A stretch of DNA of 64,000 bases, taken from Entophlyctis helioformis (lineage: Eukaryota; Chytridiomycota; Chytridiomycetes; Chytridiales; Chytriomycetaceae). The position numbers and the translations under genes are program-made. The notes below the pieces were generated by a model, which was not told the DNA's origin, did not search any database, and saw only the letters and a list, made by a program, of their open reading frames with translations. Positions within the stretch are counted from its first letter, which is position 1. Every line of letters starts with the position of its first letter. Shown here piece after piece: positions 9,016-47,682 of the stretch. The stretch is from assembly GCA_025526915.1 (NCBI GenBank), contig JAHLKH010000018.1, forward strand, positions 62,001-126,000. Direction: 5' to 3'.

Positions 9016-9071
9016 GCCCACTCGTGGGTGGTGCAAATAGGAAGCCACAGACACGACGGGCAAAAATGTAC

Positions 9072-9143
9072 GCTCCCGGGTGGGCTCGAACCACCAACCT
9101 TAACGTTAACAGCGTTACGCGCTAGCCATTGCGCCACGGAAGC
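9072..9143 (-). tRNA. tRNA-Asn (GTT)
   Basis: 72-nt cloverleaf read on the minus strand. Acceptor GCTTCCG pairs with CGGGAGC. D-arm GCGC...GCGC. Anticodon stem TAACG/CGTTA with loop CTGTTAA, giving anticodon GTT. T-arm GGTGG-TTCGAGC-CCACC. No intron. Confidence 0.95.
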
Positions 9144-9159
9144 CCCACCAAGAAAGTGC

Positions 9160-9230
9160 TCTTCAGCGGGGAATCGAACCCCGGTCTTCCGCGTGACAGG
9201 CGGAGATACTAGCCACTATACTACTGAAGA
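9160..9230 (-). tRNA. tRNA-Asp (GTC)
   Basis: 71-nt cloverleaf read on the minus strand. Acceptor TCTTCAG pairs with CTGAAGA. Anticodon loop CTGTCAC gives GTC. T-arm CCGGG-TTCGATT-CCCCG type. It lies 16 bp from the tRNA-Asn gene in the same orientation. No intron. Confidence 0.95.
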
Positions 9231-29303: not shown

Positions 29304-29607
29304 GCGGGAGACGGATGGGGACAGCGCGACGAGGAGCGCGACCGGCGGCTTTTCAATTGCAAAAGCATTGGTGCAGATGGCTGTGCATGTTTGCCACTGC
29401 CACCCGAGCGGTGCATAAATGGCACTGCCACCCGAGTGGTGCATGAATGGCAATGACAACAGGCAAGCGAGAGGAGCTGAAGAAGGGGTGGCTGTGCACA
29501 CGTCCCTCTGCTGTGCCACGGCTTTGGCTGCCTGCTGAGAGTGCTGTCCATGCCTCGATCGGGTCGACGAGATGCAAAAAGAAACAAGCAAAACATTGCA
29601 AAGGTGC

Positions 29608-29679
29608 GATCCCGGTGGGGATCGAACCCACGATATTCTGCTTAGAAGGCAGACGCCTTATCCACTGGGCCACGGGACC
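29608..29679 (-). tRNA. tRNA-Arg (TCT)
   Basis: 72-nt cloverleaf read on the minus strand. Acceptor GGTCCCG pairs with CGGGATC. Anticodon stem TCTGC/GCAGA with loop CTTCTAA gives anticodon TCT. T-arm GTGGG-TTCGATC-CCCAC. No intron. It lies between the divergent right P450 and ankyrin genes and has no counterpart in the left module. Confidence 0.95.
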
Positions 29680-39529: not shown

Positions 39530-40046
39530 TGGGAAGCTAAGAGGTGCCTGCAGGCGCAGCAGATGGGCGGTCAGCATGCGTGCCGGCCATCCGAGGATCT
39601 GCCACGTAGTCCAACGTACGTTGTTTGGTTTAGAGCCAAGTTGCCGCCCGGTTCTCATACCATTACCCCTGGTGGAATATTCCTGATTGGTCAATTCTGG
39701 TGGAATCGCTGTGATTGGTCGATCCTGGTGGAATCGGTGTGATTGGTCGATCTAGAGAGCCCTTGCACAGTGCTGACACTGCGTGATGCGAGCACAGCAA
39801 CGACAGTGGTGCAGGCAGCAGCGCCTGCTGTCTCGCTGGGCCGTGCGTGTGTGTCCTCCATGAATAAAGAGGGGCGAATGCATAGTCATGTGCAACGCTC
39901 TCTCTCTCTCTCTCTGAGGAGCATGCCATTCCACACACACAGACCAGTGCTCCATGTGTTGCTGCCAACCATCAGTCTGATATTACGAGAGCAGCTTGCC
40001 CATAAAACGACCGACACAAAACAACACCAACAACAAACCAACGAGC
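39530..40046. promoter_or_regulatory. Divergent intergenic region between LDAF1-like and XPG-Fanzor genes
   Basis: 517 bp with no gene. Contains the 29-bp tandem repeats, a (ct)n tract at 39898-39916, and gccaagttgccgcc at 39635-39648, a motif that recurs with one extra A at 47652-47666 on the other side of the locus. Core promoters are not resolvable by eye. Confidence 0.5.
39662..39753. repeat. Three tandem ~29-bp repeats
   Basis: Units ctggtggaatcgctgtgattggtcgatc recur three times with small changes. Located upstream of the XPG-Fanzor gene and of the divergent LDAF1-like gene. Confidence 0.85.
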
Positions 40047-43000
40047 ATGGGAGTCGACGGCAGTCTCCCCACCATCGACAAGAGAGGTGGTGTCAAGACA
40101 TACAAAGCAGACACCCCTCTGCCCACTGCCATTCAGGCCATTGCCCAGCAGCAGCCAGATGCCAGCAGCAGCAGCAGCAGCAGCAGCCGACTCGGAGCCC
40201 ATCAGCTGCATCATCCATGTCGACATCCTTTGCCTGCTCTTCATTGACATTATGAGAGCAGCAGCCGCAAAGCCGCCCCAGTCTGACAACGACTGGAGGC
40301 TGCTACTCGAGCCGCTCATCAGCAGCCTCGCCGCAGCCATTGGACAGCTGCACACAGTCCAGCTGCACGTCGACGGCTCGCAGCTCGACACTGGCACCAA
40401 GGCTGCCTATGCCGGGCGGGCCTGGGCGGCATTGGAGGCGGCATCCTTTCTCATGGCTGAGGCAGCCAAGCGAAATGCTGGCCAGAAGAGCGGCAAGCTC
40501 TCGAGGTGTGCCACTTGCTGCTGTTGATCTGCATGCTGTACTGACTCAATGCCATTCCAGAAACGAGATGCAGCGCCTGCAGAAGGCATACCCCCTCACA
40601 CGCGAGCGCAAGGCAGCCATCTGCAAGGCCCTGGGCAGTCTTTGTAACTGCCTCGTCGAGAGGCTGGCCGTCTGGTGGCAGAGGGCAGTGAGTATACAGG
40701 CTTACGGCGGATACAACTACAACAACAGGCCAAGCAAGTCCGGGCGAGGCGCGTCCAGATCATGCCAGCAGGTCCGTGACCACGGACTGCGGCGGCATCT
40801 GTTACAGTCTTCTTGGATACTTCAAAGGCGGGTCTCTGTGTGCCTTTGCGAGAATGAGGCGGATGTTTGCATTGCACGCCATTCCCACGAAGCAAGGTTG
40901 GTTGGTCTTCTGCATGCTTCTAGAATCCATGGCTCACGCGCCTTCTTGACAGCAATGTGCCAGTCATTGTCATCAGTGGCGACTCCGATCTGGTGTTCCA
41001 CTGTGCCGGCTATTGCCCTGTCCTGCTGCTGCAAATGCGCAGTGGGCAGATCAATAGAATGCGATCCTACAATCACCATGGGATTGCCTCCATTGCAGCC
41101 GCCTTAGGCTTCCATTCCTTTGTCTGCCAGTTGGTGGCCGCAATGGCGAGCAACGACTATTTCCATTGTGTTGGGATTGGTAGGTTGGCTTGCCTGCTTT
41201 GCATTTTTGGATGTCATGCACTGCGACCTTGACTTACTGTGATGCTGCGATGTGGACTTGAAGGGATTGTCACGGCTGCAAAGTGCATCATGGCATGCAT
41301 TCGTTTGGAGGCAGAGCAGCTGGGTATCTCTGTCGCGGATGTCTGTGAATGCCTCCAAGACCCCGACATTGCCAGAATGTTTGTGCATGTCATCAAGATT
41401 GCGTTCATGTGGCAGATGTACAAGATCGGCGGCAAGCCTCTTGCCCAGTCATTCAGCAATGCCTTCGCGGTGTTTCTCAACCGTGACGAGAGGGAGCGAT
41501 ATTGGAGAGATCACAGCCCCAGCATGTGGCCATTATGCCAGTGTGTTTGCAGGACAGATGCGGCAGTAAGTCTTGGTTTGGATGCACTTGGACAGCATGG
41601 CATTGACATGAATGCATGCACCATCCAATGGCAACAGCATCACTGCCAACAGGACCATCTCGCCCCAAAACAGGTAGGCACGGCTGCGATCTCTGCAGGA
41701 TTCTTGTGGCACTGACTCTGATGGATGCCACTGGCAGATCTGCCTCTGCATGCACGGCCTACAGCGACTGCTGCTTGAGCCACACGGCACAGCAGCTGAA
41801 GGGAAATGCCAGTGGTGCGGTTTGGCACATCACACGGGACGCAGTCACAGAGCTCGCCAACCACACTGTCAGCACAAGGCGGATGGACGGCGTTTTTGGC
41901 GAATTCAATGGCTGCCGTGTCGTGCTTGGCTGCATCCTCCGGTGCACAGCAGATCAGCTTGCCAATGACAGCATCAACGGCCGCGACATTCTTGCTGATA
42001 TCTGCGAGAATGCAAGCAAGCAGCTGCTCCAGGCTGTGCACGAGAAGGATCTGCTACAAAAGGATATGAGATACTCAGCCCAGCTGAGCAGAGCCTGTTA
42101 CACGCCTTTGTGAGTTTTGGGTGGCTTGGATGCGTGTCTTGACTGTCCACTGCATGCTGTTGCTGATTTTGAGCATGGCTGACTTGATCCATCACTGGGC
42201 GAGCAGATGGTGATCCTGAGACTGCAGGAACGGCTCAAGAGGTATCCAGGCATCGCATGTGCACCATTCAGGCGTTCAAGGAAGCCAGGTTCGCTCTGCA
42301 TTTGTTTGGCACAGTGCGACCTTGTGTATTCACAATCAATCACGGCATTCTTCTGGCAGGCAACCGCAAGGCTAAACAGCACCGCAGAAAGAGCACACGG
42401 ATCGCGACTCGAAAGGCTGTCGCTGCCATTCGCAAACAGGCCGTAGATACGCTGAATCTCTTGGAATGCCAAAAGAAACACAGCCCGGACGACTTCAAGC
42501 CGCTGGCACTTTCTGAGCAGTATCAACAAGCCACAGACACGCTGAAACTGATCATTGACAGGGCTCCAGTGCGTCTTTGCATTTCTATGCTCTGTTTGCA
42601 TGTGGCGGCTTGATGCACCTGCTCATGCTTTGACTTGACAGGTCGGCAAGCCACCAAAAGCGCCAAAGATGCTGCTGCCATCTCCAGCCGCAGCTGATGG
42701 CACAGATCGCGACAAGATCCTCTACATTGATGTGCTTCAAGACACAAAGACAACCGTGAGTTGAACTGCAGGCTTGTGATTGTGAGCATCTTGTGCACAT
42801 TCAGAATGCACGCCTAAGATTGCATCCAAACACGGCAGGAGCCATACCTTGTCACACTGGCCAGACAGGCTGTATTCAAGAAGGAGCGAGAAGAGCGTGC
42901 AGAGAAGGCCAAGGCAGATGAGATCATCAAGGAGCTCAAGAAGGATGCAAGCAAGCAAGCCCGCCAGGCTCAATCTGAGGACGAGACACAGGCGTAAGTG

Positions 43001-46000
43001 GCATATGGCATGTCGCGTGCCTTGATTGTGCTTGCTGACATGCATTCTGCTGGCAGATACGCATTTCATGCAAGACGCACCTTGCACAATGAGCTTGTCC
43101 GGATGGGCGACTACAAACAAGGGGCCTGCCAGACTCTTCCTGCAGCCGCCAATTTCAAAGCACCAACAAAGGAGGGCACGGAGAAAGACAAGGAGGAGGA
43201 CGAGCACGAGCGCGAGCAGGAGGCACAGCAGCATCCCAAAGCACCAAAGGCTCAGACAAACACGCAGCAACATCGCCCCAATATGATCGTGGATCTGAAG
43301 GTATGGGAGTTGATCGCGATGCTGCTCTGCATGCTCGGCTTTGTGTTTGCTGACAGGTGTGCAGGAGATGGTTTCAGACAATCCAGCAAGCGCAAAGTTG
43401 TTGGGCCCTCCAGCCAAACCACCATCAGCAGAGCAAACCATCGCCATGGTTGTCCTAGCCTGCATTTCCAAGGTTTACACGTTCATCATTGGCGCTCGGC
43501 ATGTCGGGATTGTGATGCTTGGCGCTGTTCTTGAAGTACTGCTCAAGCTTGAGTCAGATGAGCCGCTGCCACTTGATTATCGCGTTTTCAAGTGGACCCG
43601 CGATGGAAAGACCAACTACTGCTTTCTTGATCGCGAGAAACTTGACCGCAAGACGGAGGCTGCGCTCTTGGCAGGATACTGTGTGCTGGAAAAGGACACC
43701 ATGGTCCGGTTTATGTACGGCGTTGGTCCACATGGTTGCAAGGGCAAAATCCCTTTCTATGGGGATTCTGTGATCCTCTCAAAGGACACAGTGCTTGAGC
43801 TCTGCTCGCTCGGACACGTCAAGAAGCCCAAGCAGCCCAATGGCCCCAATGACCCTGACAGTCCTGACAGCCATGAGGACGATCGCGACCACGAGGATGA
43901 TGATGATCATGATGACCACGAGGACGATTTTTTTTTTTTTGGATAAGAAAGCTTCATTCCAAATGCTCGCATAGCATGCCCCACCAGTGATGGCATAGGC
44001 TCGTTGGACCACGAGGACGATGACAATCATGAGGATCACGAGGACAACGAGCAGCATGAGGATCACGAGGATGACGAGCAGCATGAGCAGCACGAGCAGC
44101 AAGCAGAAGCAGAAGCAGAAGCAGCAGCAGTCATTCCAACTGCCAATCAACTCCTCACAGCACTGACCAGCAGCAGATCCGGTGGCGAGACGTCTGTGGC
44201 ATGTCTCCTACGCCACATTGTCACGATTGTTGGCAATGGTCGCATGGCAAAGCCGCGATCATATATGGACACCACCAACGCATGGCTGGTCACCGTCATG
44301 CAACTGATTGTTCACCGTAACTGGACGCGGCGCATGGTGCACGCCAATGCAGGCAAGGTGCGTGCAGACATGGCTGATGCTGACATGATGGGCATGGATA
44401 TGATGGATGCTGACAAGATGGACGCGATCCAGACAAGCGCGATCCAGACAGATTTGGACAAGGCAGTCCTGCCATGCAAGCTGGCTGTTGGTCTGTGTGG
44501 GAAAGCGGCCAATGACATCTACAGCTACTTGGCCCGAGATATCTGCACCATGCTGGCAGTGCATGTCATCTCGAACCAGTCGATGCTCGTGCTTGCTGCT
44601 GCCCACCAGCTGATGCCCGGCGCATCAAAGGAGGAGGTCGTGGCATCAGTCGCGGCCATGACCAAAGCCATTGAGGATGCCATGCCACTGGCCGCCAAGG
44701 ACGCGGCACCACTGGTCGCTGAGGACGCCATGCCGCTGGTCGCCAAGGATGCCCCATCGCCGGCCGATCTTGACACTGCACCACAAGCCACTCTGGATGC
44801 TGCACCTTCTGCAACAGGTCGCAAGAGGGCCCTGTCTAGCTCTTCGTCGCCCACCGATTGCACCGCGACCAAGAAGCCATGTGGCGAGAGGGACGAGGCC
44901 ACCACAGACGCGGCATCCAGCACACCTTCAGACACGGAGGGCATAGCCATTGCTGGGATCCCCCAACAGCTGGTCAGGCTTGCGGCGATCTTGCTCAACA
45001 AGTTGCTGTCGGAAATAGGCAAGTTCTACCGGCTGCGCAAGCTGGCTGGCGAAACAGTGATCAAGTTATGCCCTGAGGCGGCGAATCGGGACCCGTTTGT
45101 TCATATCACCGAGACCATTCTGTTTTGGTCGGTGATAGGGAACCCAAAGGATCGCAAGCCAACCAAGAACAACGCGGCATTGCAGGCTTTGCAAAAGCGT
45201 CTCTTGGCTGCGATCAGCAGTAGGTCGCACTTGGTTATGCCATGCTTACATGATTTGATACTTACAAACCACTCTTCTCAAAGAGCCTGGCTCGCAAGCC
45301 TTGACTCTTGCGTCATCCAACAAGGACATACAAGCCGCTTTCAGCTCAAGCCGCGAGGATTGCGTTCTCGACATTCTCCTCCCCGGACTCGCCTCGGATA
45401 CACGACGCTTCCAGACGCCTGCAGACGCTAAGGTCCAGATGGACGCGGCTGCCAAGGCCAGAGCAGACGCCATTGCCGATGCGACTCTTGAGGCCAAGAG
45501 ACTCCTTCTGGTTGGCAAGGTGCGCGAGGATTACATCCAGGCTGCGATCAAAGCCCTGCCCCCAGCGCGACCAACCAAGGCTGTCAGACTAGGCAGCATC
45601 AAGACCGATGGATACAGCGTCTCTCAGCTGACTCTGGACTTTCGCACAGACCGTCCAGAGTCGCCTCGCAGTATGTGGCGCACTTGAATGCGATGGTGCA
45701 CACATTGGTTCTGACATCCGCCTTGATCTGCAGGTCCCAACGCGGCGTCTTCAGCCCAGCAACTCAGTCTTGCTGGTGATGCTCATGATCACATGGACGT
45801 CACATGTGAGTTGCTGTACCAATCCAGACGCGCACTTGTTGTCCACACCGACTGACATGCCATCCACAGCCACCGATCCAGCCGACCCATCAGCCACCAA
45901 GCCAAAAGCACCCAATCCTGTAAGCCACTTGCATGCCAACCTCGCGCATTGGTGCACATGCACTGCACATTCCTCACTCATGTCATGGCACGACAGGCCC

Positions 46001-46878
46001 AGTGCAACTTTTACGCCTCGCAGCGACTGCGTGACATCATCAACGCCAACAATCTGTTCACTGACCAAGGCTACCAGTCTGTTCGTGTTGTCAGCTTTGA
46101 TTGGGGCAAGCGGTACCTGTATGGCGCGTCCAGCATCTTGGTCGACCTCAGAGACTTTTCGTATACGCTCGAGTCCAACTACGTGCTCTCCTCTGGCATG
46201 GCACGAGCCGAGCACAGCCTTCAGCGGTGGTATGCATGCAATGACTCTGCCACGTGCACTCTTGACCAGATCAACTCACAGTGCCCGTCTCTTGCGCCAG
46301 GTTTGATGACCGACTTGCCAAGGCTGCTGACATCCAGGCGGCCATTGCATTCAAGACAGCAAAGCATGCCGATCCAAACGTCAAGCCTGGCGAGAGAGCC
46401 TTTTGGGATCTGCGCTGCCATGCGTACTGCACACCATTCCTGAATGCACGGGTACGGTTTCTCTGTTTCTGGATGTCCATTGCCATGACCGCCATACTGC
46501 TTGATCGCCTGCTGATTGCACTGGATGGCATGGCATGACATGGCATTCCACAGAAGGTCAAGGCCAAGCGGTTCACCATGTGCAGCAACAGCACGTCTAT
46601 TCGCGGAAACGCTCTTGAGGGCATCATGAAGCTGGCAGGCTCGACCACTAGATATCGCGCATCCGATGCATCTCAAGGCCTCCCTGTCAGCAACCCTGAG
46701 GACAACATTCCCGTTGTGTGGGCATTTGGCATTGACTTTACAGGCCAAGGTGGCCGGCACGCTGTGTTTGAGAAGTTTCTCATCAGGCATCTGCGGTCGT
46801 CTGGATATGCCTATGTGCGTCTGATGCCATGCCATCCATCCATCCATCTGTGCACCAACTGACCACACACACGATCAT

Positions 46879-46931
<53 letters not shown>

Positions 46932-47494
46932 TCTACCGCTGCAACGAGAATCTGACCAGCCAGATGTGCCCGCAGTGCAAGCAGCGGATCCCAGACAAGA
47001 ACCGCACCAACCTGCGACGCTACGAGTGCATACCATGCAAGACTGTCTACCACCGCGATGTGCTTGGAGCCACAAACATCGGGATGGTCGCGCTGTGGCA
47101 TCTGCTCTTTGGACACCGGCCGCTCTACTTGACACACACAAAACCTGACAGCAATCCAGCCACGCCAGAGCACCTCAAAAGCATCGCAAGAATGCATACT
47201 GCCATCAAGCTGCGTGCACGAGATGCTCCGCCTGTTGTCCCACAGCCTCAAACGCGGAAACACTTCAAGTCGCATGTGGCCTCATGGGACCAGATCAGCC
47301 TGCCGTCCTGTGGTATTCAAGACGTGCTGTACAGCAGCGTTCAAGACACGGACCATCCGTCGTCCAGCTGCGACCAGCACGCAGACAGCCTGCCCTCAAG
47401 TCACTTGACCTGCATCCCACACAGTGACTTGTTTGACTACCAACTCTTTGAATCGGGGGACCTCCCGATCGACCTAACGGGTCACTTTTTCTAA
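40047..47494 (+). CDS. XPG/FEN1-type nuclease domain joined to a C-terminal Fanzor (TnpB-like RNA-guided nuclease)
   Basis: About 20 exons, roughly 1,900 residues when the insertion at 43929-44006 is set aside. N-terminus MGVDGSLPTIDKRGG and IHVDILCLLF resemble XPG-N. CENEADVCIARHS and VIVISGDSDLVFHC are the XPG-I acidic motifs (EAD, DSD), and AMASNDYFHCVGIG is the H3TH entry. A helical, coiled, acidic middle follows (HED repeats at 43860-44100). From about 45999 the Fanzor core appears: RuvC-I VVSFDWGKRYLYGAS, YTLESNYVLSSGMARAEHSL, VVWAFGIDFTGQGGR, CNENLTSQMCPQC (zinc ribbon and the rearranged catalytic Glu typical of Fanzors), YECIPC, and RuvC-III YHRDVLGATNIG. Introns checked in phase include 40688-40807, 41180-41263, 41674-41792, 42110-42249, 43301-43364 and 45809-about 45870. 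Could instead be two adjacent genes; no start or stop supports that. Confidence 0.82.
43929..44006 (-). mobile_element. Short retroposed insertion with poly(A) tail and 15-bp target-site duplication
   Basis: Twelve T's open the insert on the plus strand (43929-43940), so the retrocopy lies on the minus strand with a 3' poly(A). It is flanked by perfect 15-bp direct repeats gaccacgaggacgat at 43914-43928 and 44007-44021. The insert brings an in-frame TAA (43944). Removing insert plus one repeat copy (93 bp) keeps the reading frame of the XPG-Fanzor protein through its acidic linker. The body matches no RNA family I know. Confidence 0.8.
46879..46929. repeat. (CA)n microsatellite in a Fanzor intron
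   Basis: About 25 CA dinucleotides forming the polypyrimidine-poor 3' end of the intron just before the zinc-ribbon exon; the acceptor is the final acacag. Confidence 0.95.
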
Positions 47495-47682
47495 CGATAA
47501 AGGTGAGCACTTCGTCGGATGTGCCTCGCCCGCCTGTCGTCGCATGCTCGTTGCTGACTCGAACCTTCAATCACGTGATATGTGGGCTTGCATCCGTCGC
47601 CTCTCTGGTCGAATTTAATTCAATACTTCTTGGTAATTGTATGAATATCGGGCCAAAGTTGCCGCCACAATAACCCATCGAA

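Follow-up and report, generated by a model that had tools for sequence, protein, structure and literature searches.

Can a single polypeptide join an XPG-like nuclease to a Fanzor-like RNA-guided nuclease, and what kind of gene would encode it? The question is raised by a locus of the chytrid Entophlyctis helioformis (host assembly of 29.6 Mb in 482 contigs) that lies on contig C18, within the 64,000-nt stretch of DNA analysed here, which we call the window. The initial annotation had read exons with XPG motifs as running on, uninterrupted by a stop and in fitting splice phase, into exons with a Fanzor core. It had proposed that one polypeptide carries both halves, and that the XPG half could process ends made by the Fanzor or mature its guide RNA. 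We find here a DNA transposon of ~8 kb with inverted repeats, present in many copies, of which the locus is a decayed example. The window copy is dead, one broken member of a family whose gene has 18 exons. The window also holds three minus-strand tRNAs (tRNA-Asn at 9071–9143, tRNA-Asp at 9158–9230 and tRNA-Arg at 29606–29679).

The outer limits of the gene stand as first annotated, from an ATG at 40047 to a TAA ending at 47494 on the plus strand, and so do the motifs of both halves, which the Pfam matches given below show not to be a chance resemblance. Exon 1 (40047–40505) holds the start codon, the XPG N region and HVDG; exon 2 (40561–40896) holds ENEADVCIA and is split by an insertion; exon 3 (40953–41179) holds GDSDL and NDYFHCVGIG; and exon 4 (41264–41565) encodes the XPG C-terminal part. 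Exon 5 (41678–42109) and exons 6–10 (42207–42241, 42289–42568, 42642–42755, 42839–42993 and 43057–43300, the exon 6/7 borders being the least certain of the gene model) are followed by exon 11 (43365–45219), a middle region without a known domain. Exon 12 (45284–45670) encodes the Fanzor WED part with the TDG motif, and the Fanzor core continues through exons 13–15 (45734–45805, 45870–45919 and 45997–46229; RuvC-I, FDWG) and exons 16–17 (46301–46451 and 46554–46814; RuvC). Exon 18 (46931–47494) carries the alternative glutamate of NENLTS, the C4 zinc ribbon (CPQC/CIPC), the RuvC-III motif HRDVLGATN and the stop.

In the window copy itself this reading is broken in several places. Compared to sister copies, a 1-nt insertion near 40162 ends the ATG frame after 66 codons, 1 nt is lost near 40834 (exon 2) and near 42053 (exon 5), and 2 nt are lost near 41498 (exon 4). 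The insertion that splits exon 2 is 169 nt long (40643–40811), comes with a 7-bp duplication (CAGTCTT) and is missing at the same site in 12 of 12 other aligned copies; related sequence sits elsewhere in copies L011 and L022. A second, retroposed-looking insertion of 93 nt (43929–44021, minus strand, with oligo-T and a 15-bp duplication, GACCACGAGGACGAT) brings an in-frame TAA at 43944–43946 and is missing in the five closest copies (L009–L013). The RuvC half, encoded by exons 12–18, has stayed open, with fitting exon phases. The claim of an uninterrupted, phase-matched reading thus fails for the window copy, with its frameshifts, two insertions and TAA, and largely holds for the family.

What the two halves are was assessed in four lineage rows, one of them L017 and the other three 38, 42 and 66% identical to it in the XPG part, where three rows were hand-assembled. 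The Pfam model XPG_I_2 is found in all four at E ≤0.1 (best 2.8e-4), below the curated cut-off (20.9 bits for L017 vs 24.2). Since the curated cut-off is not reached, we label this half ‘XPG-like’. Seven carboxylates (D8, D58, E145, D147, D168, D170 and D228 in alignment A2) are invariant in 4/4 rows, and they sit where a FEN/XPG active site would be expected to have them. As FEN1-type criteria we assume seven active-site carboxylates plus DYxxxxGxG; the GxG of this motif is present in three of the four rows, of which one was spliced by hand. A solved-structure search gave no XPG structure matching the profile, and three unrelated weak matches.

For the other half, the zinc-ribbon model PF07282 (Cas12f1-like_TNB, called OrfB_Zn_ribbon in PMC10711439) matches the window’s last exon at E = 5.7e-9 and all four lineage rows (best 1.5e-10). 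TnpB models also match 4/4 rows, the matches being partial and sub-cut-off. TDG, D, NENLTS, the C4 zinc ribbon and HRD are invariant throughout the four rows, and the alternative RuvC-II glutamate adjoining the zinc ribbon is present in all of them (assigned by eye). DPG is described as a nearly Fanzor-exclusive motif, and TDG as one that characterizes Fanzor1 (PMC10711439). Here, RuvC-I reads DWG instead of DPG in 4/4 rows and in a distant lineage, L029, so we describe the protein as Fanzor1-like with one hallmark missing.

The gene sits inside a transposable element with recognizable ends. The left terminal inverted repeat (39645–39667, plus strand) differs by one mismatch from GGCCCGGTTCTCATACCATTACC, and the right one (47632–47654, minus strand) is the reverse complement of GGCCCGATATTCATACAATTACC; together they form an imperfect inverted repeat with 19/23 bases alike (by eye, from aligned copy flanks). 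Genome-wide, the left-end pattern has 86 matches and the right-end pattern 170 at ≤3 mismatches, vs 0 for either reversed control, and a few genomic sites match both patterns. A 9-nt target duplication, AAGTTGCCG, flanks the window copy at 39638–39646 and 47656–47664, the left copy sharing 2 bases with the start of the left end. Twelve copies have both flanks readable: in six, the two sides of the element agree in 7–11 bases (L009 11; L010, L018 and the window copy 9; L023 and L024 7), four of these in 9–11, and in the remaining six they agree in just 3–6. Among 132 mismatched pairings used as a control, five reach 7, one of them between copies with a common flank. Right flanks often start with AAAG or similar, a possible target preference.

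The family is large. As DNA, the Fanzor part (46000–47494) occurs in at least 40 genomic places including itself, 83–100% identical (40 of 304 candidates scored), and scoring of the XPG part covered 40 of 117 candidates, so that the copy count is a lower bound. Protein queries give at least 265 genome matches for the Fanzor half (105 of 820 candidates scored) and at least 216 for the XPG half (150 of 326). The locus has no DNA match in the plasmid collection, no Rfam family and no relatives in viral contigs. Some copies share one flank only: L019 and L020 have left flanks identical over 1,278 bp and right flanks without a match, L010 and L012 have a common right flank (91%) and different left flanks, and L015 and L017, compared on the right side, have a common flank there (97%). 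Break-induced copying, segmental duplication or misassembly could each explain this sharing. Two long copies (L042 and L043) contain nested Ty3/Gypsy-type retrotransposons carrying a chromodomain.

The gene for the ~1,900-residue polypeptide is the sole recognized gene of the element. The middle region has no known domain, just weak or low-complexity matches in a Pfam-type scan; the 7 minus-strand open reading frames inside the window element have no known domain at E ≤0.01; and no transposase domain was found in these frames or in the scanned gene pieces. Movement to new sites with ~9-bp duplications would need a transposase, which might act in trans or lie concealed in the middle region. It is conceivable that an unrelated transposase supplied in trans moves the elements, which would then be non-autonomous, and that the protein helps in retention only, a reading that we consider unlikely but worth weighing. 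The ~9-bp duplications speak for it and fit the 4–10 bp given for MuDR/MULE (PMC10045372), and fungal Fanzor1 elements that make 9-bp duplications but lack a transposase have been called MuDr-like (PMC3627910). Three of these (ROr-4, PBl-3 and MCi-4) likewise have inverted ends, a ~9-bp duplication, a Fanzor1-type protein and no transposase recognized; the accessible part of PMC3627910 describes neither a fused XPG half nor a ~1,900-residue protein for them. Against it, a genome-wide transposase search, which covered MULE PF10551, gave 0 matches in this genome, and the same search finds matches in 3 of 14 control genomes. An autonomous partner inside two larger elements (on C23 and C297) was considered and rejected, as the 8–10 kb of them covered by the analysis contain in both cases a nested Ty3/Gypsy-type retrotransposon with a chromodomain.

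Equally unlikely, and also to be taken seriously, is the possibility that the XPG part and the middle region are the transposition machinery of the element, with the Fanzor a captured passenger swapped between families. This reading draws on a mosaic pattern. In window coordinates, L017 and L027 are 67–85% identical up to ~45.65 kb and 92–95% after it, a sharp recombination border between families just upstream of RuvC-I. Synonymous divergence follows suit, being far lower in RuvC than in XPG (0.095 vs 0.814 for L017–L027; 0.181 vs 0.825 for L010–L027). However, exchange is not confined to the Fanzor end: L017 and L010 are 91–99% identical to 42.6 kb, 82% over the next 500 bases, 55–68% to 45.6 kb and then 88–94%, and their synonymous divergence runs in the opposite direction (XPG 0.065 vs RuvC 0.178). 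Judged by these identity profiles, the families have swapped parts of the gene, RuvC with the 3′ end included. Low divergence of RuvC and the 3′ end is therefore not evidence of constraint alone.

The nuclease of AcademX transposons is XPG-type. AcademX is likewise a DNA transposon encoding a nuclease, and its lineage is described as nuclease-encoding, which favours the passenger idea; it belongs to a DDE-transposase superfamily, with 3–4 bp duplications, and the portion of the source available to us describes no Fanzor in it (PMC10045372). The E. helioformis element does not show the 3–4 bp duplication but one of ~9 bp, and its middle region lacks a known domain, both of which count against the Fanzor as passenger.

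Within the exchanged 3′ end, one noncoding block stands out. This 34-nt candidate guide-RNA scaffold core (47535–47568, plus strand), chosen after the alignment was inspected, has a pairwise difference of 0.017 per site, vs 0.083 for codon position 3 and 0.028 for positions 1+2 of exon 18 (28 of 28 copies). The whole 158-nt noncoding end is at 0.11 (A1) or 0.15 (A5) per site, above codon position 3 (0.083), and without the block at 0.136 (A1) or 0.181 (A5); because the rest is variable, the block alone stands out. A guide-RNA fold was not well supported by covariation (term +1.18 in A5, -0.39 in A1). In sequence terms, the block is compatible with a guide-RNA scaffold having a fixed core.

Whether the two halves form one protein has to be read from the less damaged sister copies. 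A frameshift-tolerant gene model with introns of ≤125 nt was run on 13 copies. It recovers the introns 41180–41263 and 42756–42838 in 12/13 copies, 45920–45996 in 11/13, 40506–40560 and 43301–43364 in 10/13, and 46230–46300 in 9/13, and several others differ between copies. With fixed borders, the copies that have suffered least keep matching exon phases all the way from XPG to RuvC, exons 9 and 17 of L027 each being 1 nt short. In L017, exons 1–12 are stop-free and run through the XPG-like part, the middle region and the Fanzor TDG motif. With exon 13 kept, the reading stops at residue 1546, inside an insertion in that exon; with exon 13 omitted, exons 1–12 and 14–18 give a 1,920-residue frame to the stop. 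The insertion in exon 13 of L017 resembles a tRNA-derived SINE (by eye). When borders may shift by a few bases in exons 1–12, 116/156 exon-copy cells are in phase and stop-free across the 13 copies (L027 12/12, L010 and L017 11/12, the window copy 8/12), a generous test that passes window exon 2 despite its insertion and L027 exon 9 despite its 1-nt deficit, and that misplaces L017 exon 12, open in direct reading. Exon 11 is stop-free in the model frame in 3/11 rows (L010 1756 nt, L017 1831 nt, L027 1402 nt). No copy among those examined could be read intact from start to stop, and most are damaged.

In addition, dN/dS (by Nei–Gojobori, with codons of low local identity excluded) is <1 in every part measured: 0.14 (L017–L010) to 0.47 in XPG, 0.22–0.80 in the first linker, 0.28–0.47 in the middle region, 0.27–0.40 in WED/REC and 0.35–0.65 in RuvC.

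The halves also tend to lie together. At least 99 XPG loci could be read off among the matches listed; of these 99, 61 were examined for a partner, and in 58 a same-strand Fanzor lies ≤14 kb downstream. Forty-eight are paired with a listed Fanzor, 44 at 4.2–8.6 kb and 4 at 11.8–12.7 kb. Another 13 unpaired loci (L028/L030, L029 and 11 short stretches placed at the distance expected of a partner) were examined, and ten also have a Fanzor, one of them judged from 210 bases where a contig ends; in L033, L035 and L038 none was found in the 2.1 kb examined. The distant lineage L029 has XPG, middle and Fanzor in the same order. In L028, XPG and middle are followed by a Copia-type retrotransposon, and the Fanzor resumes beyond it, in L030; the Fanzor reading of L030, which lies on C18, has a match in a predicted E. 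helioformis protein.

Open, phase-matched exons, the same order in distant lineages and dN/dS <1 lead us to a single polypeptide at the family level, and we consider the XPG-like/Fanzor-like fusion likely as a family trait. The one-polypeptide claim of the initial annotation is thus carried by the family and not by the window copy. A rather improbable alternative is that two genes or an internal start produce the XPG part and the Fanzor separately, merely in tandem. Public E. helioformis models do split the region, P0002 starting in the RuvC part and P0001 just upstream of the TDG motif, and those found there (among candidates of 0.55–1.75 × 378 residues) are fragments of 217–332 residues. No public protein of 1,056–3,360 residues was found to match residues 1480–1830 of the L017 reading, the full 1,920-residue reading has no match at E ≤1 among 8,000 candidates, and further solved-structure searches gave no match in two cases and in another one at E 0.95, to an AI-designed RNA-guided nuclease. 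The shared domain order in distant lineages is compatible with one gene or two. On the other hand, L017 reads on from the XPG part to TDG without meeting a stop, exon 11 changes length between families by multiples of three in the 3/11 open rows, and the gene model fits without any intron >125 nt, which leaves no evident space for an intergenic gap.

If one protein is made, its halves may share a task. In the account that we prefer, the 3′ end of the transcript would be a guide scaffold and continue into the flank, which would supply the guide; the Fanzor part would cut empty or sister sites, and homologous repair would copy the element back. Copy-back after nuclease cutting has been proposed for TnpB (PMC10432273). 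The tethered XPG part would trim 5′ ends or flaps at Fanzor breaks. Such an action of the XPG half on the ends of breaks made by the Fanzor is a tentative proposal, which we would sooner bet against than for. The full statement (a decayed transposon copy, a fused ~1,900-residue XPG-like/middle/Fanzor1-like protein and the roles proposed for its halves) we place a little short of even. Far less probable is a protein that achieves mobility by itself, with no DDE transposase; its Fanzor half would pick and cut sites by RNA, and its XPG half would make or trim staggered ends giving the ~9-bp duplication.

A described XPG–Fanzor fusion was not found in the titles and abstract openings of the literature searched, no paper of which names both Fanzor and XPG, and the nearest systems differ in layout. 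SPu-1/SpuFz1 of Spizellomyces punctatus is also a chytrid Fanzor element with inverted ends (PMC3627910, PMC10432273); it is ~2.1 kb long, with one 633-residue reading frame and a putative TA duplication, whereas the E. helioformis element has 8 kb, 18 exons, a ~9-bp duplication and a DWG RuvC-I. PGv-1 is likewise a transposon carrying a Fanzor and a second nuclease, but there the GIY-YIG nuclease and the Fanzor are separate proteins beside a Mariner transposase (PMC3627910).

The biological roles of Fanzors have been called unknown (PMC10432273). A tethered second nuclease under selection in a large family would suggest that break processing is part of the job of a Fanzor, an idea that can be tested. 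If true, the E. helioformis family would offer a natural design of an RNA-guided nuclease that carries its own end-processing enzyme.
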